Origin: Chloranthus sessilifolius
Lineage: Eukaryota; Streptophyta; Magnoliopsida; Chloranthales; Chloranthaceae
Assembly: GCA_021018995.1 (NCBI GenBank)
Contig: CM037590.1
Span: 83,298,097-83,362,096 of the forward strand
Length of the DNA stretch: 64,000 nucleotides
Reading direction: 5' to 3'
The notes beneath the pieces were generated by a model. That model was given only the letters and a program-made list of their open reading frames with translations. It ran no database searches and was not told the DNA's origin. Shown here in pieces: positions 9,811 through 62,414 of this stretch (position 1 is its first letter; each line of letters begins with the position of its first letter). The position numbers were made by a program, and so were the translations under genes.

Positions 9811-10450
9811 GCTAATTCTGTGCATGTGGGGATGTGCGAAATTGGTGAATTCCACGCATGTGGGAACGAGCTTAATTAAATTCTACGCAGTGGCATATGT
9901 GTTTGATTCAGTTCAAGTTGGCTTGTGAACATGGCTTCCTTGTCCTAGTATACCTAGAGAGCTTATTCCGCATAGTGGATCGCATAGTGGAGTATGTGCT
10001 CGATTCGATTCCACGCAGTGGAGTATGTGCTTGATCGTAAGTTTAGGCGGTCTAAAGAGTTAGAGGCGGGGTTCAACTGGGAACCAATTCTGTGCATCTA
10101 GTGGCACGTGGAATCTAATTCTCCACAAAGGGGTATGTGCGAGATTTGGGTCCCTGGGCGGTTTGGGGAGTTAGAGTCCTAGTCCAGTTTGGACTCATTC
10201 CGTGTATATGGACATACATGGAATCAATTTCACGTAAGTGGGTCTGCGTGGGATCGAGGTCGTCGGGAGGTTAGGGGAAGTGGAGTTCTAGTCCAATCTG
10301 GACCTATTTCGTGTGTATGAGAACACGTGGGATCAATTTCATGCTAGTGTATCTGTGCGAAATCGAGAACTTCAGCGGTGCATAGAAGTTTGTGTCGCGC
10401 AAGTGTATTTACGTGGAATCCAATTCTGTGCAAGTGTGTTTACGTGAAAT
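9811..10450. repeat. palindrome array in C left LTR (ATTCCACG..CGTGGAAT type)
   Basis: About ten imperfect inverted units, spaced 45-70 bases, have the form AATTCCRCGC, a short centre with GTG, then YGTGGAATC. Clear units lie near 9812, 9845, 10010, 10090, 10195 and 10400. The same array recurs in the right LTR (51345-51970). Confidence 0.75.
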
Positions 10451-10637
10451 TGGGAACTTTTGAGGCTTTAACGGGTTAAAGCCGCAGAGCTATTGTTTCA
10501 GCTCGAGGTCTCGACCATATGTTATTGTTTCAGCAATGGTCCCCATATTAGGGTCGTAAAGTCTTTGAAGAAAGTCAGTCCTTATCTAGAGATCGTTAGT
10601 AAGGTCAAAGGTTAATCAAATAGGATTATATACCTAG

Positions 10638-10642
10638 AGAGG
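10638..10642. repeat. target site duplication AGAGG, left of element A
   Basis: AGAGG precedes the 5' LTR of A and recurs at 27405-27409 after the 3' LTR terminus CAACA. Joining the flanks gives the U3 terminus seen in related LTRs (GAGAGGCAAAAATTGGGGTG). Confidence 0.88.
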
Positions 10643-10994
10643 TTATTTACTAAAAAGAACTATTTTTCACCTCTTAACTTGCCCTTTTCTACACCTTGAA
10701 GATGACTAATAACTTTTGTTTAAGTGTGTTTTGTAGTTAGTAATAAATTATATAGCTTAACACAAAGTCCATATTTTTTGTGCCAAGAAGAGAGAGAATT
10801 CAAACCAAGGATGATAGCTGAACCAAAGACTGATGGAACACCATGGTGGTACACACCATGGTGACTACTTTGCATGTCATGATGGACCAAGGAAGTCTAG
10901 CAGATGAAAGAAGTATAGATGAAAGTGGACGAAACTGCAACAGAAGCATATGCCTTGCAGCAGAGGAACAAATGACTTATCTTGCACAGTTGAG

Positions 10995-11460
10995 GTGCTG
11001 CCTCGCGTAGCTAAGGCTGCAGTAAAACTTCCTCACGCAGCAATTGCGCACTTCAACTGCAAGCACCACTTAAAGAACTCACGAGGTTCTCGCGTGGCTA
11101 TGGAGGAGAGAGCTCCAGAAGTTCTCTCACGTAGCTCTCGCACGCCTAGAAGCTTAACCCTGTACCGAGTTAGATGTGCTATCCACTTGACAAGAAACTA
11201 AGCGAGATGTAAAGGCATCTGTGCGAGTACCTCGCGACAGGAAATTCTAAAGCCCTACTATGCGAGTGCATTCAAAGCCCTAGCAGCTGTGTGATAATGT
11301 GAAGTCCACCTGTGCGAAGGAACTAAAGAGCAAAAAGCAACGGTGTGACAAGCTTAAATCCTTCTGCGCGAGAAAGTAGCATTTAAAACCAAAATTTTTC
11401 CTCGCAACTACTTTTCAAGCCATGCGAGAAAATTAATGTGTAGAAACTAGCCTCACGAAG
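10995..11460 (+). promoter_or_regulatory. CTCGCG/TGCGAG array in U3 of element A
   Basis: Some fourteen CpG words are seen: CTCGCGTAG, CTCACGAGG, TCTCGCGTGG, CTCTCACGTAG, GTGCGAGTAC, CTCGCGACAG, CTGCGCGAG, CCTCGCAAC, CATGCGAGAA, CCTCACGAAG and others, in both orientations, spaced about 20-60 bases. The array precedes the TATA-like box by about 200 bases. The same words fill the spacer in front of ORF2 (19511-19935). Confidence 0.7.
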
Positions 11461-12118
11461 GTCGGGCTCTCCACTTCTTAGTCTTAACTCAAGGACCTTT
11501 TGAGGATTTCCCCAAGTCTAGGGCACACATCTTGAGGCTTTGATCTTGAGGCACACATCCCAAGGCATCCAAGGGTTATAATAGTGCCACATCTATTAGG
11601 AAATTAGGGTGAATCTTCTTTGAGCCAAGGCATTAGGGACAGAGTATTTAAGTTATACTTGTAACTTAGAATTTTTATCTTTCCTTTAACTCCTGTCAGC
11701 TGAGAGCTCAAGTAGACTAGGGTTAGGGTTTAATAACCTCTTTTTCTCATTTTTCTTCTCTCTTAACCCAACACTTGCTGGCTAAATCCCTTGAAAGCCA
11801 TTAGGTATAGGTTTATTTAGTTTTGTAATGGGTCTTGTAACCTTTGGGATTTTGTGAAGATCTGTTGTGCACAAGGCTGCTACCTTGAGAAATCTCATTG
11901 TAAGTACTGTGTTGATTAATGAGATTTATTTTTTTAATTGTACACTCAATCTGTTATTTTTCTATTTGCTCGTAGTTTTGTTCATTATATGCATGCAATT
12001 AGGATTTGAGCTGATTAAAAGGCCCATGGAAGCTTGAGCTTGTAGCCTTAGGACCATGGTGGCAGCAACAGTTTACATGTTCTTTCTTTGACCCTTGTGG
12101 TGTGGATAACCTCTGTGG

Positions 12119-12150
12119 ATAGCCTGTGACCATTTAAGTGGACAGACTAT
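12119..12150 (+). other. conserved leader hairpin in element A LTR
   Basis: Arms ATAGCCTGT and ACAGACTAT (one mismatch) enclose GACCATTTAAGTGG. Related copies lie near 12511-12550 and 12620-12655. Element B has ATGGTCTGT..ACATACCAT around the same core at 38101-38132. Confidence 0.6.
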
Positions 12151-13187
12151 AGCCCTAGGGCGAGTCCAAGCTACAGATCTAGGAGGGATTCTTCTCCTCT
12201 ACACATGAGCTTGTAACCTTGGGAGAGGTTGTTGCAGGAACTGGCTCCCCTCTGTTTTACTTGACCAATATCAAATGTTAGATCTGATTTCTCTATAGTG
12301 ATTACAAACTTGTGAGCTGAGTCATTGCAAGCCTTTTGTAGCAATGTCAGCTGCTTTTAAGTCTCCAAATAGCCCTTGAACAACTGTGGTTCCCACTAGT
12401 CTTTCAAGATCTGTTTGCTCCCTTGGATGCCTGAGCTTGTAGCCTGGCAAACATGGTGTCTGCAATGGTTTTCATGATCTGATTTAGCCATTGGCTGGAG
12501 GACATCTATTGGATCATCTGTGACCATTTAAGTGGATAGGTTATACCCTTAAGATTAGTCTACTCCGTTGGATCCGATTAGTATTCTGATTTGATTCATG
12601 TGGTTTGATCCTCTCTATTGGATAGTCTGTGACCATTTAAGTGGACAGGTAATAGCCTTAAGAGACCATGTCAAACCATATGAATTGAGTTAGATACCTC
12701 CTCCTTGTAGATGTGCTTGTAGCCATCTAAAGGACTGCTACAGAGACAGCCCTAAGTCTGAGTTACTTAACTGAATCAACATTAGCTTAATTACCTACTT
12801 CCCATCATTTTATCTTTCTTTTTGGCACACACCATCCCCACCTTCTTTATAACCCTTTCTCTAGGATAGGACTGCACTTTATTTTTCTTCTTTTAGTGGT
12901 AATTTAGTGTAGTTGTGACACCCAACTCCCTTGATTTAGGATTGTCAGATCTGTAGCCAGATTTGGAGGCTTACTATTATAGCCCAATTTGGGTTCTAGA
13001 TGAAAATCTCTGTGGGACAAACTCTTACTTACTTAAAACTTGCTACAATAGCATTGTATCTTGCAGGTTGTGTGTATCTTAGGTTGCTACTTTCATAGCA
13101 ATTTCACTCCACCTTTGTATTCTGATTTTTTCCACCACATCACCACTTTAAATAACAGCAGGCATACCTAGGTAGTCAACAAGTATT

Positions 13188-19061: not shown

Positions 19062-20331
19062 TGATCCACAGCTTTATAACATGTGTACCATATATGTTGA
19101 AAATTTTATCTTGTTTGATGTTGCTTAGAAATCTATCAATTACTGCTTTTAGTGTGATGATGATTTGCTTGTTTGTTTTATTCTATTTTATTTTATTCTG
19201 TTTTGAGTACATGTGCAAATGTGTCATCTGAATTTAATGTGCATGTCTGTTGCTGCTATGGTTGAGGTGCTCTTATAATAAATGTCATGAATTTGATATG
19301 AAAGACTATCTTTAGAATTATGCATTTTTTATGTATAGATATTGATAATGGGCATATAATTATAATGATGAAATGGAGTACATGTGAAGGGGTTGGTGCT
19401 GATGCCCAATGGATAGGTGCATAATAGGATGGATGCATTAGTCAATGTGCAACACTGAGACAAAGGTTAAAAGTTGCTTTCTCACTAGGCTAAAAGGCCT
19501 AAATTACACACTCGCGAGTCAATTCTTGGCGTTCTCGCGGGGCTCTAAAATGGCATGTGTTGCCTCGCAAGCTAAACATCTGAAGAATAACTACATATGA
19601 GCCTCGCGAGGCTATCTCTTCTCCGCAACATCAAGCTACGTGAAAATTATAAGTCATGTGTTTTGTTCCTCACGAGAACCTCACAAGGTAAAATTCTGAA
19701 GCCTGCACTTCTACCAACATTGCGTGGTACTTGATGCTCTACATGTATGAGTCTCGTGAAGCTAGATAGCACAGTTGGGCGAAAGATGAAAGAGGCATCT
19801 TGTGCACCTTGGCTTCAAATCAGCCCCATGAATACCTCGCGAGGCTATGTTCTTCTTCGCGATAGCACTTCTCACGAGATTGAATTCATAAGTGCACGAG
19901 AAATCTACTTTGCAAGAACCTGGCGATAGCCGCACAAGGCACGGGTTCAACCTTATAAACCCCGTGATTTCTTCATTTTCTTCATTTCATACCTCTTTGC
20001 CCTAGCCTCCACTGAGCAAGACCAAGCTTCTCTCTCCCTTCTTTCTTCTCTACAGCCTAATCCACTCCACCTCAAAGAGTTTCCTCCTACTATTTTACTC
20101 CCCATCACCTTCTGGTCATGTTGAGCTAGGTTTGGGGGGATTTGAACCTTTGTGAAATATTTAAAGTGAAACCCTAGCTTCAAGTTAGTAAGATCTCTCA
20201 CTCTCTCTGTTGCTTTGATTGAATAGTAATTTAGAGTTAAGAAGGGAAGATTTTAGGTGCTACTATAGTTATCAAGTGTGCATTGCATAATCTGAGAGTT
20301 GCAAGCCATAATTTAGAAAATTTGAATAGCT
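19062..20331 (+). promoter_or_regulatory. pol-ORF2 spacer of element A with CTCGCGAG array and TATA box
   Basis: No gene in 19062-19500. From 19511 to 19935 CpG palindromes recur: CTCGCGAG (19511), TCTCGCGGGG, GCCTCGCGAGGC (19601-19612, perfect), CTCACGAGAAC, CTCGTGAAG, CCTCGCGAGG (19835-19844, perfect) and CTCACGAGA. They match the array in the LTR of the same element. TATAAA follows at 19954-19959 in CCTTATAAACCCCG, about 370 bases before the ORF2 ATG. The arrangement suggests a separate internal promoter for ORF2. Confidence 0.7.
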
Positions 20332-23300
20332 ATGGCCACGGGTTCAAAATTCACAGAAACCTTGGCTACTTTGGTGACTTCTACAGCCAATGGCAGCCCC
20401 GTGGCCACTCGAAAATCTGCAAGGATTGTAGAGGCTTCCATTATGGAGACCTCTGAGACACCTACATCCATTGTGGAGCCCCAAGTAGAGCAACCAACTG
20501 AGAAGAGGGCTGCCCCAGTGAAGAAGGGTAAGGCTATGGCCTCTGATACCCAAGCCAAAAAGAAATTTGCCCCAAAGAAGAGGGCCAGAGAGCACCAACT
20601 TACCAAAAGCCCTGAGAAATCTAAAAAGAAACAGAAAAAGGGCAAGGCCGTGGCCAAGAAGGTCCCTGAGGTGGACACTAATGAGGAAGAAGATACTGAG
20701 TACCTCAGAGTCCCATCTGAATTTGTAACTGCAATTAAATTGGAGAGAAATAATTTTTAAGAAAATTTATTTTGAAGAGCTACCAAAGACATCAGCCTCC
20801 ATTGAGTACCTAACTAAGGCAACTCTACTACCCTTGTTGAGGCCCCCACTACAGCTAGTTTTCCCTAGACTAGTGCAACTATTTTATTAGAATATCAGAG
20901 TAAAGATTGGGGATGATGGGAACCTAGCATTGCTGGTATTGATTGACAAATTTGAAATGCTCTTCAATCAAGCTGCAATAGTAGAAATACTTGAGATTCC
21001 AGCCAAGTATAGCCCTAAGCAAGGCTTGGGTCCTCGTTTAATAGCCACCATCCCAGAAATAGCCAAGGAGCTAACTGGAGGGGTCACAGCCTCAGGAGTC
21101 TCAATTAGGAAGAGGGATCTGCACACAAACCTCAGATTTATGGATGGGGTGTTGAGGAAGAATGTGCATTGCTCTAGCCATGAGCAGGAGAGGAGGTCAC
21201 CCATTGCCAATGCACTCTACTCATTCCACATGACTCACTACTTGGGTGCTGCGAAGTTGATTTTTGAGTAGATGAAGGATATTCACGAGAAGGTGAAGAC
21301 AAAGAAGAAACCCCATTCCCTTCTCTACTGCAGGCTTATCACAGCCTTGTTGTAACTTGGTGGATACCCCTTTTAGAGGGAGGAGGAGACTGTTACCCTG
21401 GCCCCCAAAAAATGTGGAAAGAAACAACGGGGGATCAGTGGTACTCTAATTGAGAAGAAGAAGAAGAAGAAGGTAGATCTGCTAGCTCCAGTAGCCCCTA
21501 CAATTCAAGAAGCAACTGCTACTGTTGCTGCCTCTATGGCTGTAAGCTCTGATGCCCTCTCTCAGGCAGCCCATTCATGTGTGCCAGCTAGCACCACCTC
21601 CACATCTGAAGCCATTACCTCACCAGCCACCCCTTCAACTTCCATGCCAGCCACCACTACCTTAACCCAAGCCTCACAACCTTTCATAGTCCCATAAACC
21701 TTACCCCAGCCAATTCTACGAACTACCACTACCACCATACCTACTGAAACCTTAACTGTACCCCCACCCATCACATCAGCCACACCAAGACCATCCATCC
21801 ATACCATATTTGATGAAAGCATACCAGTACCTCCAACAAGCCCACCTGTGATAACCACCTATAAAAAGAAAAGAAAATTAACCAAAGCCCACAAAGATAT
21901 CCCAAACTATCCCAATTTCAGAAACCTCAGCCATACCAGACCCATCCATTGAAATCCAACAACCCTCACCAACCCAAACCTCCTCAGCCCAAGCCCCTAA
22001 AGTTGAAGCCTCCTCTCAGCCCATTGAAACCTCCACACCTTTTGAAGCTGTTACCTTTAAGCCTTTAGGCCAATCCATCCCATTTTCTCCTTTCCATGAC
22101 CATGACCCACTTTCAGGAGAAAGGTACTTAGCTATGATGTCCTCTATCATAGGGGGTATCAACTATGAGTACACCCCTCTCCCAGACTCACCTCACCCTC
22201 CCCATATCACCCCTACTCATGATTCATGCCACACCCATCAATTTACACCTATACCTACTTCCCCACAGCCAACAAACTTTCACCATGCACCCACTTCTCT
22301 ATTTCAACCAATTGTAACCAGTCAACCCACACTACCTGTTATCCTTGATATCTTACCCTAAATATTCAACCTCCTACTCTCCCTTCAAGCCCAAGTGTTG
22401 GCCAACACCCAAACTCATTCATCCATTGAGTCCAACCTTCAAACTATGACCCCCACCCTCCAAAACCAAGCCTTAATCCAAACTAGCCTACAAGCCATCC
22501 AATCCATATTGTCCCTCTTAACCCAATCTTCATAACAACCAACTATCTCTACACCCACCCATTTACCTACTCCACCCCCTTCTCCCCAACCCTCAACCCT
22601 ACCTGTAACCACACCTATACCCATTGAACCTATCCCAAAAATCCCACCTGCTGTAGCAACATTTGACTCTACCACAGATGTGGAAGACTCAATCCCGACC
22701 TCTTGAATCCTAACCCAAACAGACCCTGAACCTAAACCAGAACCCCAACCTGAGCCTGAATCTGAAGTCCCCCAGCCCATTCCTTCTACTACCACCCCAC
22801 CCATGTCATCATCCATTCCCTCTCCATTTCTGGCTGGCCCTTCTTCAAGTGATGAGTAGCCCTTAATACATGCCTCTTCCTTTTCCATACCTCCATACTC
22901 CACCCTCCTCCATGCTATGAAAACTAACCCTTACCTTAAAAGGATGTCATTAGAGGCATGAATGACATCAGAACATCAATCAGGGTTCCCTATGAAGAGA
23001 AGATTCATCTAATGGAGCTGGATTCTAAAGTTTAATTGCTGAGAATAGAAAAGGGCTGGAAACAAATGTTGATTCTCTTTAAAGCCCAACAGTGTGTTGC
23101 AGAAATAGAAAAATAGAGAGTAGATACACTGAAGACAAGGTTAGCTACCTCGAAGGAAGTAACAAGGGCTACCAGGGAACTCTATGAAAGTAGAGTTCTG
23201 CTTGCTGAAAAGAAAGCAGAAATTCTTGAAAGGAGAGTGGCTGAAATGACTGCCAGAAAGCTTGCACAAGATGCTGCTGCTGCTGTTGTGAAGCAAGAGA

Positions 23301-25265: not shown

Positions 25266-27404
25266 TGTTATTCACTGAAAAGTACCATTTCTCACATTTT
25301 AACTTGGCCTTTGCTATACCTTGAAGATGACTAATAACTTTTTTTTAAGTGTGTTTTGTAGTTAGTAATAAATTATGCAGCTTAACACAAAGTCCATGCT
25401 TTTGGTTCCAAGAAGAGAGAGAATTCAAGCCAATGATGACAGTTGAACCAAAGACTGATGGAACACCATGATGGTACACACCATGGTGACTACTTTACAT
25501 GTCATGATGAACCAAGGAAGTCTAACAGATGAAAGAGGTAAAGAGGTATAGATGAAAGTGAAGGAAGCTGCAACAGAAGCATATGCCTTACAACAGAGGA
25601 ACAAATGACTTATCTCTTGAGTTGAGGTCTTTGCACGCGTGTAAGGCTGCATAAAACTTCAGACAAAGAATTAAGACTTCAGCAAGCACCACTTAGAGAA
25701 ATCGTGAGGTTATCACGTGGCTATGGAGGAGAGAGAGCACCAGAAGTTCTCTAACGTAGTTCTCTCACGCTTAGAAGCTTAACCCGGTACCGAGCAAGAT
25801 GTGCTATCCACTTGACAAGAAATTGAGCGAGATGTAAATGCATCTACGCGAGTACCTCACAAAAGGAAATTCTAAAGCCCTATTGTGCTAGTACATTCAA
25901 AGCCAGAGCAGCTGCGCGATAATGCAAAGTCCACCTACGTGAAGGAACTAAAGATGCAAAAAGTAACTGCGCGACAAGATTAAATCCTTATGTGCGAGGA
26001 AGTAGCATTTAAAGCCATAATTTTACCTTGCGAGTACTTTGCAAGCCACACGAGAGAATTAATGTGCATAAGCTAGCCTTGCAAAGCTCGGGCTCTCCAC
26101 TTCTCTGTCTTAACTCAAGGACCTTTTGGGGATTTCTCCAGGTTTAGGGCACACATCCCAAGGCCTTGATCTCGAGGCACACATCCCAAGGCATCCAAGG
26201 GTTGTAATAGTGTCACATCTACTAGGAAATTATCGTTAATCTTCTTTGAGCCAAGGCATTAGGGATTGAGTATTTAAGCTGTACTTGTAACTTAGAATTT
26301 TTATCTTTCCTTCAACCCCTCTCGGTTGAGAGCTCGAGCAGACTAGGGTTAGGGTTTGATCACCTCTTTTTCTCATTTTTCTTCTCTATTAGCTTAGCCA
26401 TTGTTGGCTAAATCCCTTATAAGCAATTAGGTATAGGTTTATTTAGTTTTGTAATGGGTCTTGTAACCTTTGGGATTTTGTGAAGAGCAGTTGTGCACAA
26501 GGCTGATGCCTTCAGAAATCTCATTGTAAGTACTGTGTTGATCAATGAGATTTATTTTTTTTAATTGTACACTCAATCTATTATTTTTCTATTTACCCGT
26601 AGTTTTGTTCATTATATGCATATAATTAGGATTTGAGCTGATTGAAAGGCCCATGGAAGCTTGAGCTTATAGCCCTGGGACCATGGTGGCAGCAATAGTT
26701 TACATGTTCTTTCTCAGACCCCTGTGGTGTAGATAACCTTTGTGGATAGCCTATGACCATTTAAGTGGACAGACTATAGCCCTAGGGTGAGTCCAAGCCA
26801 TAAATCTAAGAAGGATTCTTCTCCTCTGCACATGAGCTTATAGCCTTGTGAGAAGTTGACCATTTAAGTAGACAGGTTATAGGCTTAAGAGACCAGGTCA
26901 AACCATAAGAATTGAGTTAGATACCTCCTCCTTGTAGATGTGCCTGTAGCCATCTAAAGGATTGCTACAGAGACAGCCCTAAGTCTGAGTTACTGAACTG
27001 AATCAACCTTAGCTTAATTACCTACTTCCCATCATTTTATCTTTCTTTTTGGCATACACCATCACCACCTTCTTTATAACCCTTTCTCTAGGATATGAAT
27101 GCACTTTATTTTTCTTCTCTTAGTGATAATTTAGTGTAGTTGTGAGACCCAACTCCCTTGATTTAGGATTGTCAAATTTGTAGCTAGATCTGGAGGCCTA
27201 CTATTATAGCCCAATTTGGGTTCCAGATCAAAATCTCTGTGGAACAAACTCTTACTTTAAACTTGCTACAATAGCCCTGTATCTTTTAGGCTGTGTGTAT
27301 CTTTGGTTTCTTTTTTCATAGCCATTTCACTCTACCTTTGTATTCTAATTTTTTCCACCACATCACCACTTTAAATAATAGCAGGCATACCTAGGTAGTC
27401 AACA
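25266..27404 (+). mobile_element. 3' LTR of element A
   Basis: TGTTATTCACTG to GTCAACA, aligned with the 5' LTR over its length except for a missing segment of about 400 bases near 26848. That join falls inside one copy of the GACCATTTAAGTGG hairpin phrase. The CpG array (25640-26085) is retained but eroded. Confidence 0.92.
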
Positions 27405-31690: not shown

Positions 31691-31699
31691 TCATCGGTT

Positions 31700-49253: not shown

Positions 49254-51112
49254 TGTTGAGAACTGGAAAATACCAATTTTCACCCCTTAACCTGAGTCTT
49301 GATAGACCTTTGAGAGAACTAAATAAGTGTTCTAAGTGCTTGTATTTCCGCTAACAATAAAGACAGGCTTAAGCATAAAAGCAGCTTAAAAGTGCCAAAA
49401 AGATGATAATCCATGTCGATCCAAAGGAAGAAAGAGAAGGGACAACCTCATTAGCTGTTAAAAGGTCTGAATGGAAGAGGCAAAGACCTGGTCTCAACCC
49501 AGAAAAGAAGTATGGAGCAATTCGAACAGAAAAATGCACTACAGAGTACTTTTTGCAAAGAACCTGAACTGTTCGCAAAGAACCTAAACTCTGCGAAAAG
49601 AACTAAAAACTCCCGGCTTAGCTTTCGAAGAGCACTTGAACTCTTCGAAGAGATGATTGACCTTTTCGAATAGAAGAAAACTCCATTCGAACAGAACCAG
49701 AACATTGCGAAAAGAGCTTCAGGAGTTACAACACCTTGTGAAAAGTCCCCTAAACTATGCGAAAAGGTATTCTGGAGTTTCCCAACTTTTGCAAGGGCAA
49801 TTCAGTAATCTTTTTCACGCGTCCCAATGCATTTAAAAACCTAGGGACATTCCAGAGGATTCTAAGCATGAAGCTTAAGGCATATTCCACATGGTGAGCA
49901 CCCCAGAGATGAAATAACTTGGCGGAACTTCTAGAACTCTAACAACTTTCAAAATGCATAATGTAATTGATGCTTTTTTCACCTGATTGGCTGAACCAGA
50001 TCGAGGAATTCTGATTGGCCGTAACAGATTCGATCTCGTTCGATTTCACCATTGGTCAATATGTATCCGAGTACTTCGATTGGTTGATACACATCCGAGT
50101 GGACTTAGGGAAAACTATAAATAGATAACCATTTGCCCAATTTGGGGTATCCAGATTTCATTCTTATTCCCCCATTTCCAAATCAGATAGTTTGTCTAAA
50201 ATCCCTGTAATAACCTCACTTTTACTTGCAATTGAGAGCTGTGAGATACTCCTGTAATTCAAAGGAGAGTTGTATTCAAGACTACAAATCTGAGAGCTGT
50301 TTAAGCTATGCTCTATAATTGTAATGGTGAATTTGAAAAGGTTACTGTAAACCGTACATTCTCAATTGGACTCATGTTAAGGGTTCCCTCTGATCTCCTT
50401 ATTGCATTAGACTCCTTTAGATTTACTATTTTTCATGCAATTTCCCTTAATTCATTAATCCTGTGAGAATTAGTGTTTGTAACCTAATCTCTCACGGCAT
50501 TTGTAGTGATGCTTCTTGTTCTAAATTAAGGATTTGGATTAAAAGACTATTGGATGGTCTATGGCCATTAAAGTGGACAGACCAATAGCCATAAGCCTAA
50601 ATCTAATCCTTGAGTTAGATTTATTTCTCTTACATCTGTGCTGGTAGCCGGATGAAGATTGATTCATCCCTCAGTTGAGCTGCAGTCTTTCTCATTGTAT
50701 TTCAAGGACCAAATAAAAGTTAGATATTACTTCTCCATTTTTTTATAAGTTTACCTCAAAATTCCCCCAACTCGGATCTGGATCATTTAGTTTAACTTTT
50801 ACTTTTATCATTTAGTTAATGTGACAAATTCAACCTCCCATCTTATGTGCTTTCTAGATAGGATAAGAGGCCAGATCTGGTAGCTCAGATCTGGAGGTTT
50901 ATCTTGCATTTTAGACAAATTCTTTGTGGACGATCTTTTACTCACTTACATTTAAAACTTGCTACAATTGGCCCTGATCTTGCAGGCTAATTCACTTCTC
51001 TCTGTGCTGATATTTCTTTACTCTTTTTAATGTTCTAGATTCATTATAACTTAGCAGTTGCAAACCTGTTTTTCAAAACACAAATAAATCAAGCACACTT
51101 AAAACAACAACA
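49254..51112 (+). mobile_element. 3' LTR of element B
   Basis: TGTTGAGAACTGG to ACAACAACA. Differs from the 5' LTR by scattered substitutions and small indels. Array, TATA box and leader hairpin are all retained. Confidence 0.94.
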
Positions 51113-51117
51113 AACTC
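51113..51117. repeat. target site duplication aactc, right of element B
   Basis: AACTC, one base different from GACTC at 36782-36786. Confidence 0.78.
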
Positions 51118-52205
51118 CTTTACTGAACCGTCAACCGGCCATCTCCAACAGCTATGGGTTGCCTAAGATCTAACTAGCTTGGTTTCCTAATTCTATTGGG
51201 AATCTACTCTAAGAAAATGGTGGTGGCCCGCTACACAGGGAAAAGAAACTTGAGCTTAGAAAAGGCCTGAGCTCGAGAGAGAGAGATCTCTATTGAAATT
51301 TGTGTTTTTTTTGGTGAGGTAAGGGGGTCTATTTTATAGGTAGCAGGGTAATTCCGCTCATGTGGGGATGTGTAGAATTGGTGAATTTCGTGCATGTGGG
51401 GACGAGCTTAATTAAATTTCGTGCAGTGGCATATGCGCTTGATTCAGTTCGAGTCAGCTTGTGAACCGGGCTTCCTTGTCCTAGTATACCTGGAGAACTA
51501 ATTCCACGTAGTGGAGTATGCACTCGATTCAATTCCACAAAATGGAGTATGCGTTTGATTATTAGTTTAGGCAGTCTAAGGAGTTAGAGGTTGGGCTCGA
51601 CTGGGAACCGATTTCGCGCCTCTAGTGGCACGTAGAATCTAATTCCGTGCAATGGGGTATGCGGGGGATTCAGGTCCCTAGGCGGTCTAGGGAGTTAGAG
51701 TCCCAGTCCAGTTTGGACTGATTTCACGTATATGGACATATGTGGAATCGATTTCGCGCAAGTGTGTCTGCGCAGGATCGGGGTCTTTGGGCGGTTTGGG
51801 GAAGTGGAATTCCAGTCCAATCTAAACCTATTCCACATGTATGAGCACACGTGGGATCAATTGCGCAGAAGTGTATCTGTGGAAAATTGGGAACTTCAGC
51901 GATGCACCAGAGTTTGTGCCTAGTCCTAATGGGACTAATTCCGCGCAAGTGTATCTGTGTGGAATCTAATTTTCCGTAAGTGTGTTTGCGCGAAATTGGG
52001 AACTTCCGGGCTTTAATAGGTTCAAGCAAAAGCTATTGTTTCAACCCGAGGTCTCGACCATATGCTATTGTTTCAGCAATGGTCCCCATATTAGGGTCGT
52101 AAAGTCTTTGGAGAAGGTCATTCCTTATCCAGAGATCGTTGGTAAGGTCAAAGGTTGACCGAATAGGATTGTATACTCCGAGAGGGAAATATTGGGGTGT
52201 CTACA
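51118..52205 (-). mobile_element. right (5') LTR of element C, right fragment (L2)
   Basis: Continues from 36786. TATA box on the minus strand at 51331-51338 (CCTATAAAATAG), palindrome array at 51345-51970, terminus TGTCTACA at 52205. It lacks about 470 bases present in the left LTR (join near 51231). Confidence 0.9.
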
Positions 52206-52312
52206 ATGTGTTGGGTAATTCTTTTCATGATCTTTGAGCTGTCTCGAACCATAGGCAATAACATTCTGGTTCTGGTTAAGCACACAGTCTAACCCAATAT
52301 GTGAAGCGTCAC
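52206..52312 (-). pseudogene. Tekay-like pol fragment: start of RNase H
   Basis: On the minus strand the frame reads [21 protein letters not shown], then [14 protein letters not shown], and is cut by element C exactly where the fragment ending at 8886 begins (DLELATV). On the other side it is cut at 52312 by the LTR of element D. The rest of this pol (RT, protease, gag) is not in the window. Confidence 0.92.
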
Positions 52313-52639
52313 TATTGGTAAGCACTTTTTCTGGGTTCCTTTCGGTCCCCGAAAGAAGTGGCCCAATTTGGTCCAAGTGGACACTGGCAAAAGCGGCAAA
52401 GTAATAAAAGGAAAATAAAAAGGTAAATTCTAGGGTGAGGATACCTGGTTCATTGCGATCGCTAGCTGCAGATATTTATTGACGCTGTAACACGTCACTG
52501 ATCACGCATTCCGGGGTAGAGATACGGGTTGTTCTCTTTACTGAAGGATTGGTCGGCCGATGTCAACAGAACTGGATTACCTTGAAGTTTAGTTAAGCTA
52601 GTTTTCCTACTTCCGCTCTAATTACTCTGCTTTTCCTAA

Positions 52640-52930
52640 TCCTACTGCAACTCCTTAAGTTTCCTAGTGTTAATAGGATTCTATTTAATTTAATTCTATT
52701 AAAAAGTCTATTTAATTTAGATGTCTTAATTCTATTAAGATTCTAAGTAATTAAGTCTCCTAATTTGATTAGGAGTCTAATCAATTTAGTTTCTTAGTCT
52801 AACTAAAAATTTAATTAAAATCCTAATTACAATGAAAATCTAATTAATATCCTAGTTCTACTAGGAATGTTATAATTCTATTAGCACTCTAATTAAAGTA
52901 AGTATACTAATTATACTGAAATTCTAAAGA
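52640..52930. repeat. AT-rich repeats, unit near CTAATTCTATTAGGA
   Basis: Many copies of TAATTxxATTAGxxTCTAAT in both orientations, giving short hairpins. Found only in L3 within this window. Confidence 0.75.
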
Positions 52931-53039
52931 AAAGGGGTTTGGGCCCGCTACGCTAAGGAGGATCGGCCCCATTCCTGAGTACCCTCCGTCAGCTCCCTTG
53001 GGCAAATCAGTTGGCTAAGAATTATTTTATAAATATTGA

Positions 53040-53560
53040 AGATTGAAGAAACTGAATTTGAATTTACGACTTATGGGTCTATGGATTGAAAATTAAGAAA
53101 TTTTAAGAATTAAATTAAAAATTAGGACTAAAATTCTAGAACTAAAATTTAAGAACTAGAACGTCAAAATTTACCTAAGAATTAGAACCTAAGATCTAAA
53201 ACTAGAGATTTAGAATTAAAATCAAAATTTTAAGACTGAATTTAAGAACCAAATTTAAGGGCTTGTTCCAGAAACTAAGAATTAGAACCGAAAAACTAGA
53301 AATTTAGATTTAAACCTAAGATCTAAGATCGAGAATTTAAGAACTAGAGGGCTAGAACCTAAATCTAGAATTAGAATTAAAAAAAAGGAACCGGTTGTAG
53401 AACCTGAGAACTAGAACCAGAGGAAAGAAGTAAAAGTTAAGAACTAAAAGGGAATTTAAGATCTAAAATTAAAAGCTTAAAAACCTAAGGTCTAGAACCT
53501 ATGATCTAGAGCTAAGAGCTAGAACTAAAGAAATTAAGAACTAGAAAGAAAATATACCTG
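53040..53560. repeat. AG-rich repeats, unit near AGAACTAGAACCTAAG
   Basis: Diverged relatives of the minisatellite at 9330-9660, in the corresponding part of the LTR. Confidence 0.75.
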
Positions 53561-53699
53561 AGGCCAAAGTTGCAGAGAGAGATCTCGAAATTCTAAGCTT
53601 GGAAGCAGGGAACTCAAAACTTGAGAATTGATGTGTTGGATATTCTGAATTGTCGAATTGATGTTTTTCAGGACGAGGTGGTGGGTCCTGTTTATAGGT

Positions 53700-54265
53700 A
53701 ATTGGCCAATTGCATGCCCTGTGGGGTTCGCTCAATTGGTCGGTGAATTTCAATTACGCGCCCTGTGGGGTGCGCTTAATTGAAATGCACACCTTTTAGC
53801 AGGCTCTTACTCACTTTGAGTCGGTGACTGACTCAGTGAGTGACTGGCTGAATGGCTCAGCCGGGTATCCCAATCCTAGTCTAACTAGACTAATTGCGTT
53901 CCTTGTTTAGTGCGCTCAATCAATTAAGTGGTTGAATGCATGCACTTAATAGGAGATTTCAGGCGGTCTAGGGAATTAGAAACCGGGTTGGCTTAGGAAC
54001 CAATTATGCATAGGTGGAGAGGTGCATAATCCTATTGTGCGCAGTAGATAGGGCGTGCAATCGCGTCTCAGGCAGTTTCTAGAAGGTTAGGCACTAGTCT
54101 AAATTGGACTAATTGCGTGCTGGTGATGTAGCGGGCAATATGGTTGCGCACACCTGTCAGGGCGCGTGATCAAGTCCAAAGGGGTTCAACAAGTGACTAA
54201 TTGCATGCCAGAAGTCAGGCATGCAATTGAATTATGCACTCTGTACAGGGCACATAATTCAGGAT
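53700..54265 (-). promoter_or_regulatory. palindrome array in LTR L3 (AATTGCGCGCC..GGCGCGCAATT type)
   Basis: About eight inverted units. The clearest are ATTGCATGCC..GGCATGCAAT at 54202-54228 and GAATTATGCACTC..AGGGCACATAATTC just after it. Others start near 53706, 53751, 53891, 54002, 54034 and 54111. The array lies directly 5' of the minus-strand TATA box. The same unit, including its CTCTxxxCAGGG centre, recurs before the PMD gene at 59526-59555. Confidence 0.75.
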
Positions 54266-54472
54266 CTACCGGGGTTTAGGTCGGGTTCGAGCCGCGGAGC
54301 TATTATTTCAGCCCGGGTCTCAACCATGTACTATTGTTTTAGTGCATGGTCCCCGAATTAGCGTTTTGAAGTCTCCAGAGAAGGTTAGTCATTTTCTGTA
54401 AATCGCAGACAAGGTCAAAGGTTGATCGAATAGGTTTGTATTCTCTAAGAGGGAAAAATGGGGGTGTCTATA

Positions 54473-54487
54473 GATGCCCCTCTTCGG
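54473..54487 (-). other. polypurine tract of element D
   Basis: The minus strand reads CCGAAGAGGGGCATC before the LTR start TATAGACACC. Confidence 0.78.
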
Positions 54488-55245
54488 CACGTCCTTGCAG
54501 AGTAAGGATGCGTCGAAGAAGTATACAACCCTCTCCCAAGGGTGCCTTCTCATTTCCTTGGAAAATAACAACTGTGAACCAGAGATGCTGACATGAAATG
54601 TTTGGCTTTCTTATCTATCAGCACAAGCTAAAATGGAGCATTCGGGGGCCTAGTGGTAGCTGTCGAATGGCGTATTCCATATCATGGATGAGAGTAACAT
54701 CCCGTCGCATATCTTGACCTGCTACCAGTAGCAATCAATGGGGGAAAAGTGGCATAACCTAAACCATGGGTGCAAGAGGCATCCCACTGCATATCGCGAC
54801 CTACTGTAAGGGGAAGTCAAATGGTAGGAGAGTCGATATCCTAATCTATAGGCGCAAGGGGTAATCAAACAAAGGAATATTCGACACAAATCGAGGTATC
54901 GGGGGGCGTCATACGGATGTCTAGAGACAAGGTCTAGAGATCAAATAATAAGATGTAATATCATGTAATGGCAAAGGCTTTCGCAAGTAATATCAGACCG
55001 GGCGTGTCATTGCTCACACCAATGGCACGTCAGGTGTCCCTTTTCCAGTGAACATTTATGATTTCTCAGAGTTGAGCATACTCATTGTTCGGTTGCCCAT
55101 GGGAAAGAATGGATTGGAGTGGTGAGAGATGAATTTTGATAGAGAATTTTTTTTTATTATTATTTATTTCTTTTTGTGAAAATTCAAGATTTTTGAAATT
55201 TTGGTTTTAACTTAAGATCAATTCAGTTGTAAAACTTTAGAAAAT

Positions 55246-55428
55246 GTGGCTTCTGAGGCGTCGTTGAGCAGATCCACTGGTATGAGATTTGTGGACCCGA
55301 CCATTTATGTGTTTGTCAAGACGACACTTGGTGTGCCGAGTGCTCCATCTAACCTTCTCATGAATACTGATGATTGTCACTTATGGGAGGACTACAGTGA
55401 TTCACGAATAGAGAGAGACGGATTTTAA
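55246..55428 (+). CDS. conserved small ORF, antisense in element D 3' region
   Basis: Counterpart of 27955-28137: sixty codons from GTG to TAA, with SEASLSRS, DPTI, VKTTLGVP, SNLL, LWEDY and RDGF. The frame is open upstream to about 55213. Same length and position relative to the LTR as in C. Coding status is unproven. Confidence 0.4.
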   Translation: MASEASLSRSTGMRFVDPTIYVFVKTTLGVPSAPSNLLMNTDDCHLWEDYSDSRIERDGF

Positions 55429-55524
55429 AAATGTTTGACTTAATATTAGATAACTATATTCTATAGAAAATATCGAGTAAGAAGAAAGGGAGTTTTACTT
55501 ACCTGATTTATTGCTAGTGGGAGG

Positions 55525-56345
55525 ACTTTGTATGCGATGGGACTAACCGGTTGTCGCAGTGATGTTGCGATGGGACATTAGAGGATTTCCTCTCTTTGTT
55601 TCTTCATTTTTGTTATAGCGGGGCCTGATAGTTGCCGGTGTGATGAAATGTTTTGCGGAGGTGAGGTTAGCGATTGGTCGTTTGGTGATCCACCCCTTCT
55701 GATTGCGTGTTGTGGTGAGGCAGTCAGGAATAGGGTTCTCTTGTTTCACGATGGGACGTGATCGAGCCTTCCCCTCAGTTTGTTATGTAGAGTCATATGA
55801 TGGGATCTCAGGAGGCGTGATTTGCGATGGGACTCGGAAGGTTCGACTCTCTGCTTTTAGCGATGGGACATTGACTGAGCCTTCCCTTCTTAATCGTACA
55901 TAGTGAGGGGCCGTGTTCGATAGTCTTGGGTAGTAGTGTTGCGATGGGGTGGGTTAAGTTGTAGTTGCATCGTGACAGGTCATGTGCTAGGTTGACGATT
56001 CCTTGGTTGTTTCATTGTTGTGTTGGAATAATGATGGTGTTTCTTTCTTTGGCAAATCTTGATTATGTGATGGGTTGGAGTTAGTTTGAGTGGTATCCGA
56101 GAGTGTGACGGGACCTATCTTCGATGTGGTGAGGTTTTTTTAGCATCACGATCGGACATAGCTAATTTATGCTTGTGTTCAAATGTTGCAAGTCCTACTG
56201 CGATAAGCCGTGAGTGTGATCAGTGGCTCTCTTTGTCTCTCTAAACAGCCTGTAAGGCTATGCGATGGGATAGGAGAGAAGGATTTTGATCGTGATGGGG
56301 CTACATGAGTTATCAAAGGGATAACTCAGTTGTGATGGGACTAAA
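55525..56345. repeat. degenerate GCGATGGGACATTG repeats, element D 3' region
   Basis: At least ten copies near 55527, 55568, 55749, 55799, 55824, 55859, 55935, 56149, 56262, 56296 and 56332, with shared follow-on phrases (TTGACTGAGCCTTCCC). Homologous to 28200-29110. Confidence 0.75.
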
Positions 56346-56519
56346 GGGGATGCCTTGGTTTATGCATTCGAAATGGTCTCCGTAAGAGGATCTCGTAGGG
56401 TTTGAGAATAGATATGTTTGGTTTGAGTGATCATTTTTCAAGGTGGACGTGTGTGTAGGAGGGAATTTTTCCTTCGAGTTTATAGATTGTGTGTTTAAGT
56501 GAGAGTCGTGGGCTTAGAA

Positions 56520-57250
56520 TAGCATGCCTGAACAAGGGCGCGAGATTTAATTATGAGCAGGTGAAGCTACGCGTGATTGGTGCACAGGTTAAGATGTGTG
56601 TAATCTGAAGTGTAGTGCATAATCCTATTGTGCACAGGTTAAGATGTGTGTAATCAAAGCGTCAATGGGATCGTAAGGTAGAGTGTTCGGGCGGCTTTTC
56701 ACATTTTGTGCTATGATGTAAGCGTTTAATTCAATTGAGCGTTCTAGTTAGTGCACGTGATTGAGGGGTCACCAGGGCACTGTCCGGGTGACTTTAAGAA
56801 TTTCGTGCAGGGTGGAGGATGTGTGATTTGATTGTGCGCAAGATGGTCCTCCCGGAATTGGAGTGCCGAGCATTGTAGGCGGTCGGAAGTTCAATTGCGT
56901 GAGCATGGAGCTACGCGTGATTGGGATTATGTGCCAGTGTCTACGTATAATTGAATTGTGCATGATGTTTCGAGTGCTTAATTAGGCAGGTTTCTATATA
57001 TATCCATGTTTCTTTCATTTCTTCTTCATTCGTTCCTGTTTTCCTTAAGTTTCGTGTTTTAGCGATATCTTGTGATCCGATCATCCGATTGTGATTTCGT
57101 TTCTTCCTATGTTTGTTATTTCGCTTGATCTTCATCCTAAGGTGCTCGGTGATGATGGCATGGCTATGAGAATGGGAGGTAGTGGGAATGAGGAGATCGA
57201 TACATCCTTCATTGTTGTTAGAAGGTGAAGATGGCAGGAGGGAAGTCCTC
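56520..57250 (+). promoter_or_regulatory. second copy of the PMD promoter region, with TATATATA
   Basis: GTGCACAGGTTAAGATGTGTG occurs twice (56580 and 56632), then words like AATTGCGTGAGC and ATTGTGCGCAAG, then CTATATATATCC at 56993. The following leader (TTCGTGTTTTAGCGATATCTTG) resembles the leader of the PMD gene at 59780-59800 (TTCCGTGTTTACGAGATTTC). CGGGTGACTT is shared with 59480. It looks like a duplicated promoter and first exon remnant; no long frame follows. Confidence 0.5.
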
Positions 57251-58400
57251 CAAATGGATGGAAAGGGTGTTCCCCAACCAATCCTCCCCTTCGCCTTCCG
57301 TTGCTTTTGATTGGATGAACGGTGCTCGGGCTTTATGTTTGTTTTGGGTTCGATTTTCGTTTTGGGTTTTAAGTTAGGGCGTTAGGTTTTTATTTTGGGT
57401 TGTAAAGTCAAGAAGTATGCCTCCGGTGATATCTGTAAAATTTTATTAAATAAATTAATAAGTGTTTTGTTTATTGTGTTTATTTTATTTATGTTTGTCT
57501 GCGTTTATTGTTGGATTTAATCAGACTTATTTGGGCATTTATCTGATTTTACTGGAATCTATTTGAGTTTATTCGGCTTATTAGGAATTGATTCATTTTA
57601 GGATTCTGCCTTGATTTTATGTAGGATTTGATTTAACTTGAAATTTTAGGATTTATTTGGAATTTATTTAGGATTGGTTTGCAATTTTATTTGATTTATC
57701 TAGGATTTTTTGAGTATTTTATTTGATATATTGAGTTTCATTTAGAACTTTAGGTGTATTAGGGCATTTATTTTATTAGATTTATTTGACTTTATTTGGA
57801 GGGTTATCTTGAGATCACCTTGTGGTTTAAGGTAAGGAGGTGAATCCCATGTTTAAAGTTTAGTGTATTTTGTTTTGGTCCTATGTTTGATTTGGGATGA
57901 CACTTGTTAGAAAAATGTGAATTTAGTGTTTAATTATTATTTTTAATTTCTAGATGAGTGTTAAGTGTTCGAATCCTATTGGTAAATCTATTTTGCTTTG
58001 GATTTGTGTTTCTTGGAGGGGTAAGTGTTGTGTGATTCTTCGTTTATCTATGTCTACCATGGATTATGATTTTTATGTGGGCATGTGTTTGGCTCGGATT
58101 TAATTAGACGAAGGGTGCTTTAAAGTGAGACATTTGTCTCATTGTGGTGAAAAGGGTTTAGGAAAGTGACATTTGTTGCTTTGTATCTTTAAGGAGTATG
58201 TTATAAATAGGGGCTTTGAATTTTAGACTTAGGATTAAAAGTTTGGGACATTTTTGAATTTTAAAAGGTTTGGAGCATTTTATTTTATTTATTTTAATGT
58301 CATTTCTTCCTTTTTATTTTGTATCACGGGTATTAAACCCTAGAAAGGTTTGTAATTATTTTGTATATTTTGGGAATGGATGGTATTGGGAATACGGAAT
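57251..58400. other. T-rich 3' region of element D, no clear gene
   Basis: T-rich DNA with GATTTATTTGG-like repeats. At 57954-58020 a short plus-strand block (starting MSVKCSNP after CTAG, ending at GGGGTAAGTG) is conserved with 29530-29597 of element C. Confidence 0.5.
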
Positions 58401-59319: not shown

Positions 59320-59690
59320 AATTGCGTGCGGGGTTTAGGTCGCTTAATGTAATTGCGGACTGGGTAGGGTGCGCAGAAATTATGAACCTAGGGGTCAATT
59401 AAGCGCGTTGAGAGGGGCATATAAAGAAATCGCGCGCTAGGTAGAGAACGCGCAATCCAAGCGTCTTCCGATCACTATTCGGGTGACTTTTGGATTTGCT
59501 CGCCTAAGACAAGGCGCACAATATAATTGTGCGCTCTACCCAGGGCGCGCGATTGGAGTTTGGGCGGGCGACAAATTGATTACGCGCCCATTCTGTGGCG
59601 CGTATTCAACTTTAAGTGTAGGGGATAGTACGCGCGATTCACTAGCGCGCCTGTGTTTAGGCGCGCGATTAACCCACGCGTTATAAAAGC
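59320..59690 (+). promoter_or_regulatory. PMD promoter: GCGCGCGATT palindrome array and TATA box
   Basis: Units include AATTGCGTGCGGGG, ATTAAGCGCGTTG, AATCGCGCGCTAGG, GAACGCGCAATCC, the perfect palindrome GCGCACAATATAATTGTGCGC (59514-59534, arms of nine), GGGCGCGCGATTGG, ATTACGCGCCC and AGGCGCGCGATTAAC. TATAAAA stands at 59682-59688, right after the array and about 170 bases before the PMD ATG. CpG content is high for such an old element. Confidence 0.75.
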
Positions 59691-60098
59691 CGTAAGACTT
59701 TCAGTTCAATCCCGTGCTTCCTGATTTTTTTGCAATTCCAAACTCTTTCCTTCCTTGCTTCATGCATTCCGTGTTTACGAGATTTCTTGGGATCTACATG
59801 TCCGGTTCGGATGCCATTTCTTGCATTTTCTTCAGTTTTTCGCGCTCTTTGATTTGAGATGGAGTCTGAGGGTAGCGACCGCCTATGCCTGATTGCTTCG
59901 GAGCTTGAGCGGATGGTTGAGGAGGGTGGTGAGACTTCTGAGGTCCGCACCGGTGCTGATGCCGGTATAGTTGAGGGCGACACAGAGGTAGTCGTCAGAG
60001 ATGAGGCACCTGAGACTGATGGCAGGGCGAAGGAGGAGGCTGCTCCGCGCGAGGACACGATGAAGATTCCGCTAGAGGAGTTCTTCATGCAAGATTAG

Positions 60099-60474
60099 GT
60101 AGGTACCCGTGAGCAAGAGTTTCCTATTATTTCTAGGCATTTAGGTTATAACATAGATTTGTTTAAAATGGAAACCCTTTTTTAATCTATGTTGAACTTG
60201 CATTCAGCATTAGGGTGTGTGCGCATCCATGAATCATGTTTGTATCTAGTTTTAGGTAACGTTTGCTTTATCGTTTTGCGTTTATTCATGTTTTTCTTGG
60301 TAGTTATAGATTTACACTTATAGCCTTTTTGTTGTTATTATTATTATCATTACTGTCGTTATTGGTATCGTTGTGATCTTTTAGGATTAGACTTGGTCAT
60401 TGTGTGTAATTAATGTAAGTATAGATTTTAGGTTGAATGTGTTGTTTGACTCGTCATTCGTTAGGAGCCTCCGA
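60099..60474 (+). other. first intron of PMD gene 2
   Basis: GTAGGTACC donor, T-rich body, TTCGTTAG acceptor at 60474. No other feature seen. Confidence 0.6.
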
Positions 60475-60870
60475 CATTAGCCATTAGCACAGCGTGGTTA
60501 GAGTCTCACGCCTGGTACCATGCCATGCCTAAGTTCTAGGAGGTGTGGTTAGCGGCTTTCAACTTCTGGCTGATTTTGGAGTTGGAGCCCTTCACGGTCG
60601 ACCGTGGTCTGATAGGGGCGATCATGGAGAGGTGGAGGGAGGAGTAGCAGCCAATGCTCTTCGTAGTTGGGATGTTGCTGAAGGATTATGTCCGTATTAC
60701 TGAACTCAGGTTCGAGGGGGCACTGATTACGGGGTGGATGGAGAGTTATTACCTGGCCGTATGTTTAGAGGTGCTTGGTGTTGAGTACCGACACAATGGA
60801 TCGGGGACCGGGGTGGTCCGAGTTACCTAGTTTTTTTATACTTTTGTGAGTGAATTCGTTCCTCCGAGGC

Positions 60871-60875
60871 GTCAC
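60871..60875. repeat. target site duplication GTCAC, left of solo LTR S2
   Basis: GTCAC here and at 62415-62419 flanks TGATCA..TGATCA exactly. Confidence 0.92.
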
Positions 60876-62414
60876 TGATCAGTCACATAATTTACCAATT
60901 TATCACCCTTAACTTAGTGCTGCTAGGACTTAGTTTGCTACTAACAAGTTGTTGATATGTAGATATTAAGGAAAAATAATAAAATAGAGTTAAAGTGTTA
61001 ATATTCATCAAAATGAACTTAAAAGGCATTAAGAATGACGAAAGAACTAGAAGACGAAGCTCCACCTACTGAATAGAATTAAAAATCATTATTTATGATT
61101 TCTCAAGAGTGAGAGACTATGAAAGTTAAAGAATCGTTATTTACGATTCTCTAAAAGAAGCCACTCAAGGAAGAAAAGCAAAGAATCGTATTTTACGATT
61201 TTCCAGAGAATCGTCTGAAAAGTCATAAGAGAGAGAGCAATATGAAGATATAAAATTGTCATTTATGATTTTATAGCAAAATGACAAAACTGAAGAATCA
61301 TCTTTTACGATTTCCCTCAAAGAACCATACTGATAAAAAGAGAATTGTAATTTACGATTTTCTACCAAAAGAAAGAACAAAGAATCGGTATTAACGATTT
61401 TACAGAAAACTTAGCCCAAAACTGCTGATCACGTGTATTTTATACCGCCATGAACCAGAATTAGAACATCTCTTGAATTAGAAGTCTGGCAAGTCACAGA
61501 TTCGAGAAGATTGATGAAGAAGATTTTAAAGGACTGTTGCTGAAGATTAAAGAATGTTCTAGAAGTATATCAACCGTTCAAAGAAAGAAGGAAAAATAAA
61601 ATTAGAAGTAGAGCATATTAGGATAGTTTTATTTCTTTTATTAGAATTAGAAGTTTTGTAAACCGACTCCTTATGATCTATAAATAAGAGAGCCCGATAT
61701 AAGAATAGATATCGAGAAGAATTACTCAGCATCAATTGACAACTGAGGTCTGTTTGTTCTTCCGATAAAAGTAGTTAGGCTTTATAAAGTAACATCATCC
61801 ACAATTCTCTAAGGTCTTTCCTGACAACCAAGGCTGAGGAAGCTGAAGGACCGACCCTATGGATGGTTCTACTTTCGCTTTCTAGTTTAGATTTTTATTT
61901 TCTTTGATTTATTGCTTTATAAACATCTTCAAGTTTTGATTTGAATTGACGACTCAGGTTAGAATTTGCAGATTAGTGTAATGGCTTTTACTTTCATTCT
62001 TCAATTTTCTAGAGTTTGATTGACGCCTAAATTTGTGGTTGATTGTTGATTAGATTAAATCTATATTGATAGGACTTTAGTGTTGATTGACGCTCAACGC
62101 TAGAAGAATTGATATATGGTGTAATGGTACTGCTTAATTTCATAAATATCCAATAGCAGAAGATTGTGATTGACAACTATAATCTGAAGTTGGAGGATTA
62201 GGATTTATTTTATGCACTTTAGATTAAGAAAATTCTTTATTCATATTTCTCCAGTAGTTTAGGAATATTTAAAGATAAATATAAGTTTTCAGAAAAGTAG
62301 ATTAATGAAATAATAACTATCTTCATGGGAACGATCCTATACTAGCTCTACAATTTCCATTGTGCACTTGCAATAGGTTAAGACTTAATTAGATACACAT
62401 ATAAGTAGTGATCA
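60876..62414 (+). mobile_element. solo LTR S2, Athila-like
   Basis: 1539 bases bounded by the inverted repeat TGATCA and a 5-bp duplication. The start (AATTTACCAATTTATCACCC, then TTAACTTAGTGCT) resembles the starts of A and B LTRs. TATAAATA at 61679-61686. It carries no internal region. It lies in a PMD exon or next to its splice site, in the same orientation as the gene. Confidence 0.92.
61084..61399 (+). promoter_or_regulatory. seven AATCGT-N5-ACGATT palindromes in solo LTR S2
   Basis: 17-base units at 61084, 61132, 61184, 61254, 61296, 61343 and 61383. Arms AATCGT/ACGATT are perfect in the second and third; the others differ by one or two bases, sometimes on both arms (AATCAT..ATGATT). 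Spacing is 40-70 bases. The TATA box lies 280 bases downstream. Confidence 0.9.

Follow-up and report, generated by a model that had tools for sequence, protein, structure and literature searches.

Family-specific palindromic words at the LTR promoter and before the second gene of nested retrotransposons in Chloranthus sessilifolius

A stretch of 64 kb from the Chloranthus sessilifolius genome (assembly GCA_021018995.1, contig CM037590.1, forward-strand positions 83,298,097 to 83,362,096; hereafter the window) is a nest of plant long terminal repeat (LTR) retrotransposons. In the three families in which both promoters are visible (A, B and D), a short palindromic word that is repeated many times in the U3 region of the LTR was found again in front of the second gene of the element, which is the open reading frame (ORF) ORF2 in A and B and a gene for a PMD protein in D. 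This had been proposed in an initial annotation of the window. We regard it as an even bet that the arrays are cooperative platforms for a family-specific dimeric DNA-binding protein acting at both promoters, most likely the product of the second gene. A and B are LTR elements with a Ty3-type pol, and in B the RVT, RNase H and integrase H2C2 zinc finger domains follow each other in one ORF, in Ty3 order. The lineage names Athila (A and B) and Tat (C, D and F) were adopted from the initial annotation and are assumed here. C is represented by two LTRs on the - strand, each split by A or B. No pol was recognised in the window for D and F, and the LTR of the further element E does not lie in the window.

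Words were identified de novo by palindromic expectation maximisation (EM), using ungapped and gapped models on sets of U3 and second-gene spacer sequences, without any word being supplied. Arrays with many copies were present upstream of the LTR TATA box in A, B, S1, C, D and S2, and the dyad symmetry had a single gap length in each family. The models obtained from U3 and spacer, respectively, were cctcGCgagg and cCTCGCGAGg in A, CTtTTC/GAAaAG and CTTTTC/GAAAAG in B, and TTgcGcGC-N10-GCgCgcAA and gcGCGC-N10-GCGCgc in D; the U3 regions of C and S2 yielded ATTccgCG-N12-CGcggAAT and AaAATCGT-N5-ACGATTtT. The family words and many-copy arrays described initially were thus recovered in both locations. 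Two of the exact strings given there, ATTGCGCGCC and GGCGCGCAAT, do not occur at all, the D word being a degenerate consensus. In several sets another gapped model ranked above the listed word, the top five gapped models of the A U3 were not headed by the CTCGCGAG word, and two ungapped S2 models were no better than those from their own shuffles. A third D-type array (D2), the E array and the exceptional family F are additions to the initial annotation.

Models learned from U3 alone were scored on regions not used in training and compared with 400 dinucleotide shuffles. On the cognate spacers they reached z values of 18.1 (A), 27.7 (B) and 49.3 (D), and in none of the three did any shuffle score as high. 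Sister families matched across: the S1 model scored z 21.2 on the B spacer and the C model z 21.5 on the D spacer. Values for other combinations were 3.9 for the A model on the B spacer (2/400 shuffles as high), 3.4-4.8 for the A model on the U3s of B, S1 and C, 3.6 for the D model on the A 3' U3 (5/400) and 6.1 for the S2 model on the S1 U3 (1/400). The largest scores in seven control regions were 5.9 (S2 model on A pol, 3/400), 2.3 (C model on A ORF2, 13/400) and 1.9 (A model on A R-U5, 14/400). When all 64 kb were scanned, clusters were confined to promoters of the model's own or sister family (B/S1, C/D); the background elsewhere was 0-2 matches per 500 bp, with 3 in edge windows of the C arrays. 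C, which has gag and no recognised second gene in the window, has no internal cluster. The E array sits between a gag-like ORF and an ORF in the ORF2 position with a basic N-terminus.

D2 scored z 32.3 with the D model and z 44.1 with the C model (0/400 shuffles in each case). It lies in the internal region of D, within 54447-58072, and, because this region matches C LTR-adjacent sequence piecewise, it is tied to the D LTR more securely than the array at 59.3 kb. The alignment of D2 with the D spacer has an identity of 195/398, equal to the best of 20 shuffles (0.490), and contains one 18-nt match. The two arrays may be old duplicates of each other, and we do not claim them as independent.

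The C and D arrays are positional homologues with a switched word, and the D spacer carries the switched letter. In an alignment of the C and D U3 regions, 8 of the 10 D dyads lie no more than 3 columns from a C dyad, and 7 coincide with one exactly (circular-shift p=0.0056 for the 8, a value to be read knowing that shared dyad letters aid the alignment). Identity between C and D is lower inside the matched dyads (120/243) than outside them (303/472). The base at half-site position 6 is a pyrimidine in 44/52 half-sites of C (the two C copies are homologous, which makes these counts non-independent) and a purine in 20/20 half-sites of the D U3, 17/18 of the D spacer and 14/18 of D2. The C and D sites were chosen with their own models, which leans toward a switch; D2 was chosen with the C model and still carries the D letter. 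As far as the word is concerned, the concerted divergence suggested initially is therefore seen here, as different letters at homologous places. The 3' internal regions of C and D (28200-28760 and about 55700-56300) also contain many copies of a non-palindromic GATGGGACATTG-like word.

In the Tat-type promoters the last dyad centre is located 27 (C copy 1), 27 (C copy 2), 27 (D U3), 26 (D spacer) and 26 bp (D2) before TATA, and in the spacers of A, B and E the last site lies 19, 16 and 18 bp before it. The last sites in the LTRs of A, B and S2 are 189, 331 and 288 bp upstream, two weaker matches in S2 being closer to TATA than the main array. The statement that arrays lie just 5' of the TATA box is consequently accurate for the C and D U3s and for the spacers (16-27 bp), and has to be withdrawn for the U3s of A and B and for the main S2 array.

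In B the sites are phased with the DNA helix. Centre spacings are 31, 20, 20, 32, 20, 21, 21, 20, 31, 21 and 31 bp in the U3 and 52, 21, 52, 31, 31, 53 and 22 bp in the spacer. After look-alike segments had been dropped, 14 of the 18 spacings were kept, and all 14 deviated by at most 1 bp from a multiple of 10.5 bp, a regularity matched by none of 200000 jittered sets. The B spacer and the S1 U3 are phased too, and the indels between the B and S1 arrays measure 22, 10 and 1 nt. Phasing p values were 0.029 for the A 5' U3 and 0.015 (weak) for the D spacer. In C, D and D2, whose arrays are partly homologous and not independent, dyads are often paired 30-32 bp apart. Because the spacing in B and S1 follows the DNA helix, it points to a protein, not RNA, as the reader of the word.

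Taken together, the data speak more for a DNA-binding protein that works as a dimer at both promoters than for hairpins in RNA or for copying of LTR sequence. Such a dimer would bind each dyad, in B and S1 with several molecules aligned along the same helix face, and the same protein would act at the LTR promoter and at the second-gene promoter; this would account for the symmetry, the phasing, the TATA spacing and the concerted change of the word. Because the word goes with the element and the array precedes the second gene, the product of that gene is the simplest candidate, i.e. ORF2 in the Athila-type elements and the antisense PMD product in the Tat-type elements. The element would then regulate itself and would probably shield or re-activate its own promoters in a VANC-like manner. 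The reading of the word by a protein, the dimeric state and identity of that protein, and its role, be it activation or counter-silencing, are our inferences from the sequence. A wider proposal, to which we give somewhat less than even chances, is that Athila ORF2 and Tat PMD proteins, which have long gone under the labels env-like or unknown, are sequence-specific self-regulators and anti-silencers, the retrotransposon counterpart of VANC, that protein and word switch together across the sites of an element, as between C and D, and that this plan either evolved or was retained in all three of Sireviruses, Athila and Tat.

Several observations weigh against these proposals. Phasing was not significant in the A spacer (p 0.18), the A 3' U3 (0.26), the two C copies (0.17, 0.50), the D U3 (0.25) and S2 (0.52). 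Sites in the B/S1 comparison are conserved no better (113/144) than the sequence between sites (110/137) or outside the array (464/571). The 5' half of D is beyond the window, and the D LTR and the 59.3-kb array do not certainly belong to one copy. F has a PMD gene, but the F word is absent from the 871 bp before this gene in the window. A structure model of ORF2 built from three sequences had a mean predicted local distance difference test (pLDDT) score of 36.8, which is unusable. Comparison of ORF2 with PMD by hhalign, using two shallow profiles, gave a probability of 0.2, i.e. no detectable similarity, so that two unrelated proteins would be needed for one role. Finally, the two halves of the D dyads match each other more often than chance predicts (p=0.006, 19 dyads), as hairpins would also lead one to expect.

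The words could instead be read by host transcription factors, each family having recruited a different factor that it uses at both promoters, like the enhancer repeats of other plant LTRs; we consider this unlikely, if clearly less so than the two explanations discussed below. Some C dyads contain TTTCGCGC, which we take to resemble an E2F site. The position of the arrays 5' of TATA and their phasing are enhancer-like, and the palindromes of Sireviruses, when their authors compared them with known plant sites, matched mainly stress-related ones (PMC2829016). One would, however, expect a conserved host factor to keep the word unchanged, whereas C and D kept the places of the dyads and yet changed the same letters at all of them, in the D spacer too and in D2 mostly. 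Moreover, several unrelated words in one genome would require several factors.

That the repeats act as RNA, with transcript hairpins feeding or dodging small-RNA silencing, appears improbable. In three maize Sirevirus families, hot spots of small-RNA mapping are reported to coincide with palindrome-rich parts of the LTR (PMC5311732), and the matching within D dyads mentioned above would fit this explanation. On the other side, the words of A and B have a gap of 0, and a single such word forms no stable hairpin because it has no loop; within-dyad covariation was absent in A, B, C and S2 (p 0.87, 0.67, 0.80 and 0.15). The loopless words, the helical spacing in B and S1 and the lack of covariation in four of five families, D being the exception, disfavour an RNA hairpin.

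Equally little is to be said for functionless copying of LTR sequence into the spacer or plain tandem duplication: there are tandem units in B and S1 (20, 21 and 31 bp) and in C (about 109 bp), short U3-spacer alignments (31 nt at 81% in A, 38 nt at 76% in B, 42 nt at 71% in D) and best flank pairs above the random 99.9th percentile in A and D, but mean flank identity between U3 and spacer is 0.27 (A), 0.29 (B) and 0.34 (D) against 0.25-0.26 for random pairs, the surroundings differ between sites, and phasing persists once look-alike segments are dropped. A copied LTR block with shared flanks, which the initial annotation had named as the finding that would speak against its proposal, is rejected as the main explanation, and what remains are short look-alikes.

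Coordinates of the LTRs, arrays and second genes are collected in Table 1.

Table 1. Positions of LTRs, palindrome arrays and second genes in the window
Feature	Position	Strand	Details
A 5' LTR, Athila-type	10642-13183	+	87% and 84% identical blocks to 25267-27406; ends approximate
A 3' LTR	25267-27406	+	pair of A 5' LTR
B 5' LTR, Athila-type	36787-38659	+	94.6% identity to 49254-51113
B 3' LTR	49254-51113	+	pair of B 5' LTR
S1, single LTR of sister family to B	32526-34439	-	
D LTR	about 52312-54470	-	
A 5' U3 array, CTCGCGAG-type palindromes	10980-11460	+	14 sites at score 5; TATA-like TATTTAAG at 11645
A 3' U3 array, decayed	25628-26090, limits approximate	+	7 sites at score 5
A spacer array, pol-ORF2	19510-19939	+	12 sites at score 5; TATA at 19954
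B 5' U3 array, CTTTTCGAAAAG-type	37051-37330	+	12 sites, phased at about 10.5 bp; TATA at 37656
B 3' U3 array	49518-49797, limits approximate	+	12 sites, spacing as in B 5' U3
B spacer array 5' of ORF2	44418-44691	+	8 sites, phased; TATA-like ATATTTAAA at 44702
S1 U3 array, word shared with B	33895-34165, limits approximate	-	phased
C U3 array, copy 1	9815-10450	-	13 dyads AATTYCRCG...; TATA at 9802
C U3 array, copy 2	51351-51996	-	13 dyads; TATA at 51338
D U3 array	53710-54257	-	10 dyads, AATTGCGCGC-type; TATA at 53696
D2, third D array	56519-56982	+	9 dyads; TATA-like TATATATA at 56995; antisense to D LTR
D spacer array 5' of PMD gene	59322-59668	+	9 dyads; TATA at 59682
S2 U3 array, AATCGT-N5-ACGATT	61082-61401	+	7 dyads; TATA at 61679
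E array, TACGA-N4-TCGTA	5885-5990	-	4 dyads; TATAAG at about 5874, - strand
F U3 dyads, ATACT-N8-AGTAT type, without CpG	4020-4327, limits approximate	-	partly 84-bp tandem repeat
A ORF2, start and first pieces, broken	20334-21268	+	basic N-terminus; PF20167 Transposase_32 weak: 13.5 bits, E 0.067
B ORF2 piece, Transposase_32-like	45392-46060	+	PF20167 27.1 bits, below cut-off 45
D PMD gene, broken, S2 inserted	59859-63579	+	antisense to D LTR; PF10536 on 62507-62743, 30.7 bits, below cut-off 34.9
E ORF2-like piece	5048-5644	-	basic N-terminus; no Pfam match

The S2 element, located inside the D PMD gene, carries its own U3 array with a different word. In F the PMD gene (52.2 bits) is on the + strand and the LTR on the - strand, i.e. 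the gene is antisense. F was rejected as a supporting case: its U3 dyads are devoid of CpG and partly tandem, and the region before its PMD gene is of low complexity and dominates any model. The start of the F LTR (4020-4448, - strand) contains dyads ATACT-N8-AGTAT and GCT-N8-AGC within an 84-bp tandem repeat, and one or two similar units were also noticed at the start of the C and D LTRs. Two inverted repeats, AGCGCAA...TTGCGCT and TGGCACAACTA...TAGTTGTGCCA, lie just past the TATA-like box of the F LTR (3700-3790, - strand).

No sequence relative of known structure was found for ORF2, and only chance matches for PMD. A common ancestry of the two proteins was dropped, the profile comparison of shallow alignments having given no signal; by eye, ORF2 (45392-46057, ..LTVTSEDIGNALGIP..) and PMD (1196-1810) share a strand-strand-helix pattern, for which the shallow profiles provided no support. 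NCBIfam profiles returned nothing meaningful. A search of viral contigs for relatives of the B pol gave three pattern matches, none of which was confirmed, and the same search for B ORF2 gave none.

The A arrays have undergone strong deamination after insertion, like methylated DNA. Of 33 CpG positions in the 5' array (10975-11465) and its 3' LTR counterpart, both LTRs retain 11; at 16 others, one LTR has CpG where its partner reads TpG or CpA.

The precedent of VANC proteins, cited in the initial annotation, is apt. VANC21 recognises a short motif that recurs in repeated copies, and the motifs of related VANCs differ (Hosaka et al. 2017, PMC5735166). The likeness consists in an element-encoded factor, short target words in the element's own non-coding DNA and coevolution of protein and target. 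VANDALs, however, are MULE DNA transposons, whereas the arrays described here are in LTR retrotransposons; binding and demethylation by VANC were demonstrated experimentally, whereas our proposal is a reading of the DNA sequence; and the VANC21 word, YAGTATTAY, is not described as palindromic in the part of the article at hand (PMC5735166). Whether VANC-like factors exist in Athila has been posed as an open question (PMC12844716).

Second-gene products have been connected with the nucleus and with DNA before, which lends the second-gene candidate indirect support from the literature. Predicted nuclear signals were reported for those of a sunflower Athila (PMC11728184), and DNA binding was suggested for the antisense proteins of Retand, namely for their TRP28 domain (PMC11963269). 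In Retand, Grande and relatives a gene running antisense to gag-pol lies between pol and the 3' LTR; its product is nuclear, and in Grande the gene is driven from a promoter of its own (PMC7264820, PMC11963269). D and F share this antisense layout; the domain here is PMD, and no match to an LTR-promoter word is described for Retand or Grande in the accessible portions of these articles. The PMD proteins MAIN and MAIL1 are needed for genes sharing a promoter motif (DOWN), direct binding being one hypothesis; these are host genes, and binding is not shown in the accessible part of that work (PMC7156037). If the palindromes are the targets of the second genes' own products, the role of these genes in Athila and Tat elements becomes a matter for a direct binding test with a prediction for each family. 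Self-recognition through private words, if it is a shared plan, would also explain the fast divergence of U3.

The closest parallel is provided by the repeated motifs of Sireviruses (Bousios et al. 2010, PMC2829016). These short palindromes are specific to each family and recur many times 5' of the LTR TATA box. Copies in the linker were found in all 9 elements with an env-like gene, where 77 of the 79 copies precede it, and in none of 4 gene-less elements. A, B and D thus resemble Sireviruses in having palindromes at the LTR promoter and again before the second gene, and C, with no recognised second gene and no internal cluster, resembles the gene-less ones; F either departs from this pattern or extends beyond the window. 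Sireviruses are Ty1/copia elements, whereas B has the Ty3 order of pol. Nearly all Sirevirus words have a CGG-CCG core (Tnd-1 lacks it too), which none of the words here has. The available part of PMC2829016 mentions neither helical phasing nor a TATA spacing nor a switch of words between positional homologues, all of which were seen here. The two-promoter architecture is therefore already known in Sireviruses. For Athila or Tat, no description of matching LTR and second-gene palindromes was found in the open-licence literature. New are its occurrence in the Ty3 superfamily, with sense and antisense second genes, the phasing, the TATA spacing and the switch of the word between positional homologues. 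If the same plan is shared by the Ty1/copia Sireviruses and two kinds of Ty3 elements, self-recognition through a private word would be a general strategy of large plant retrotransposons.

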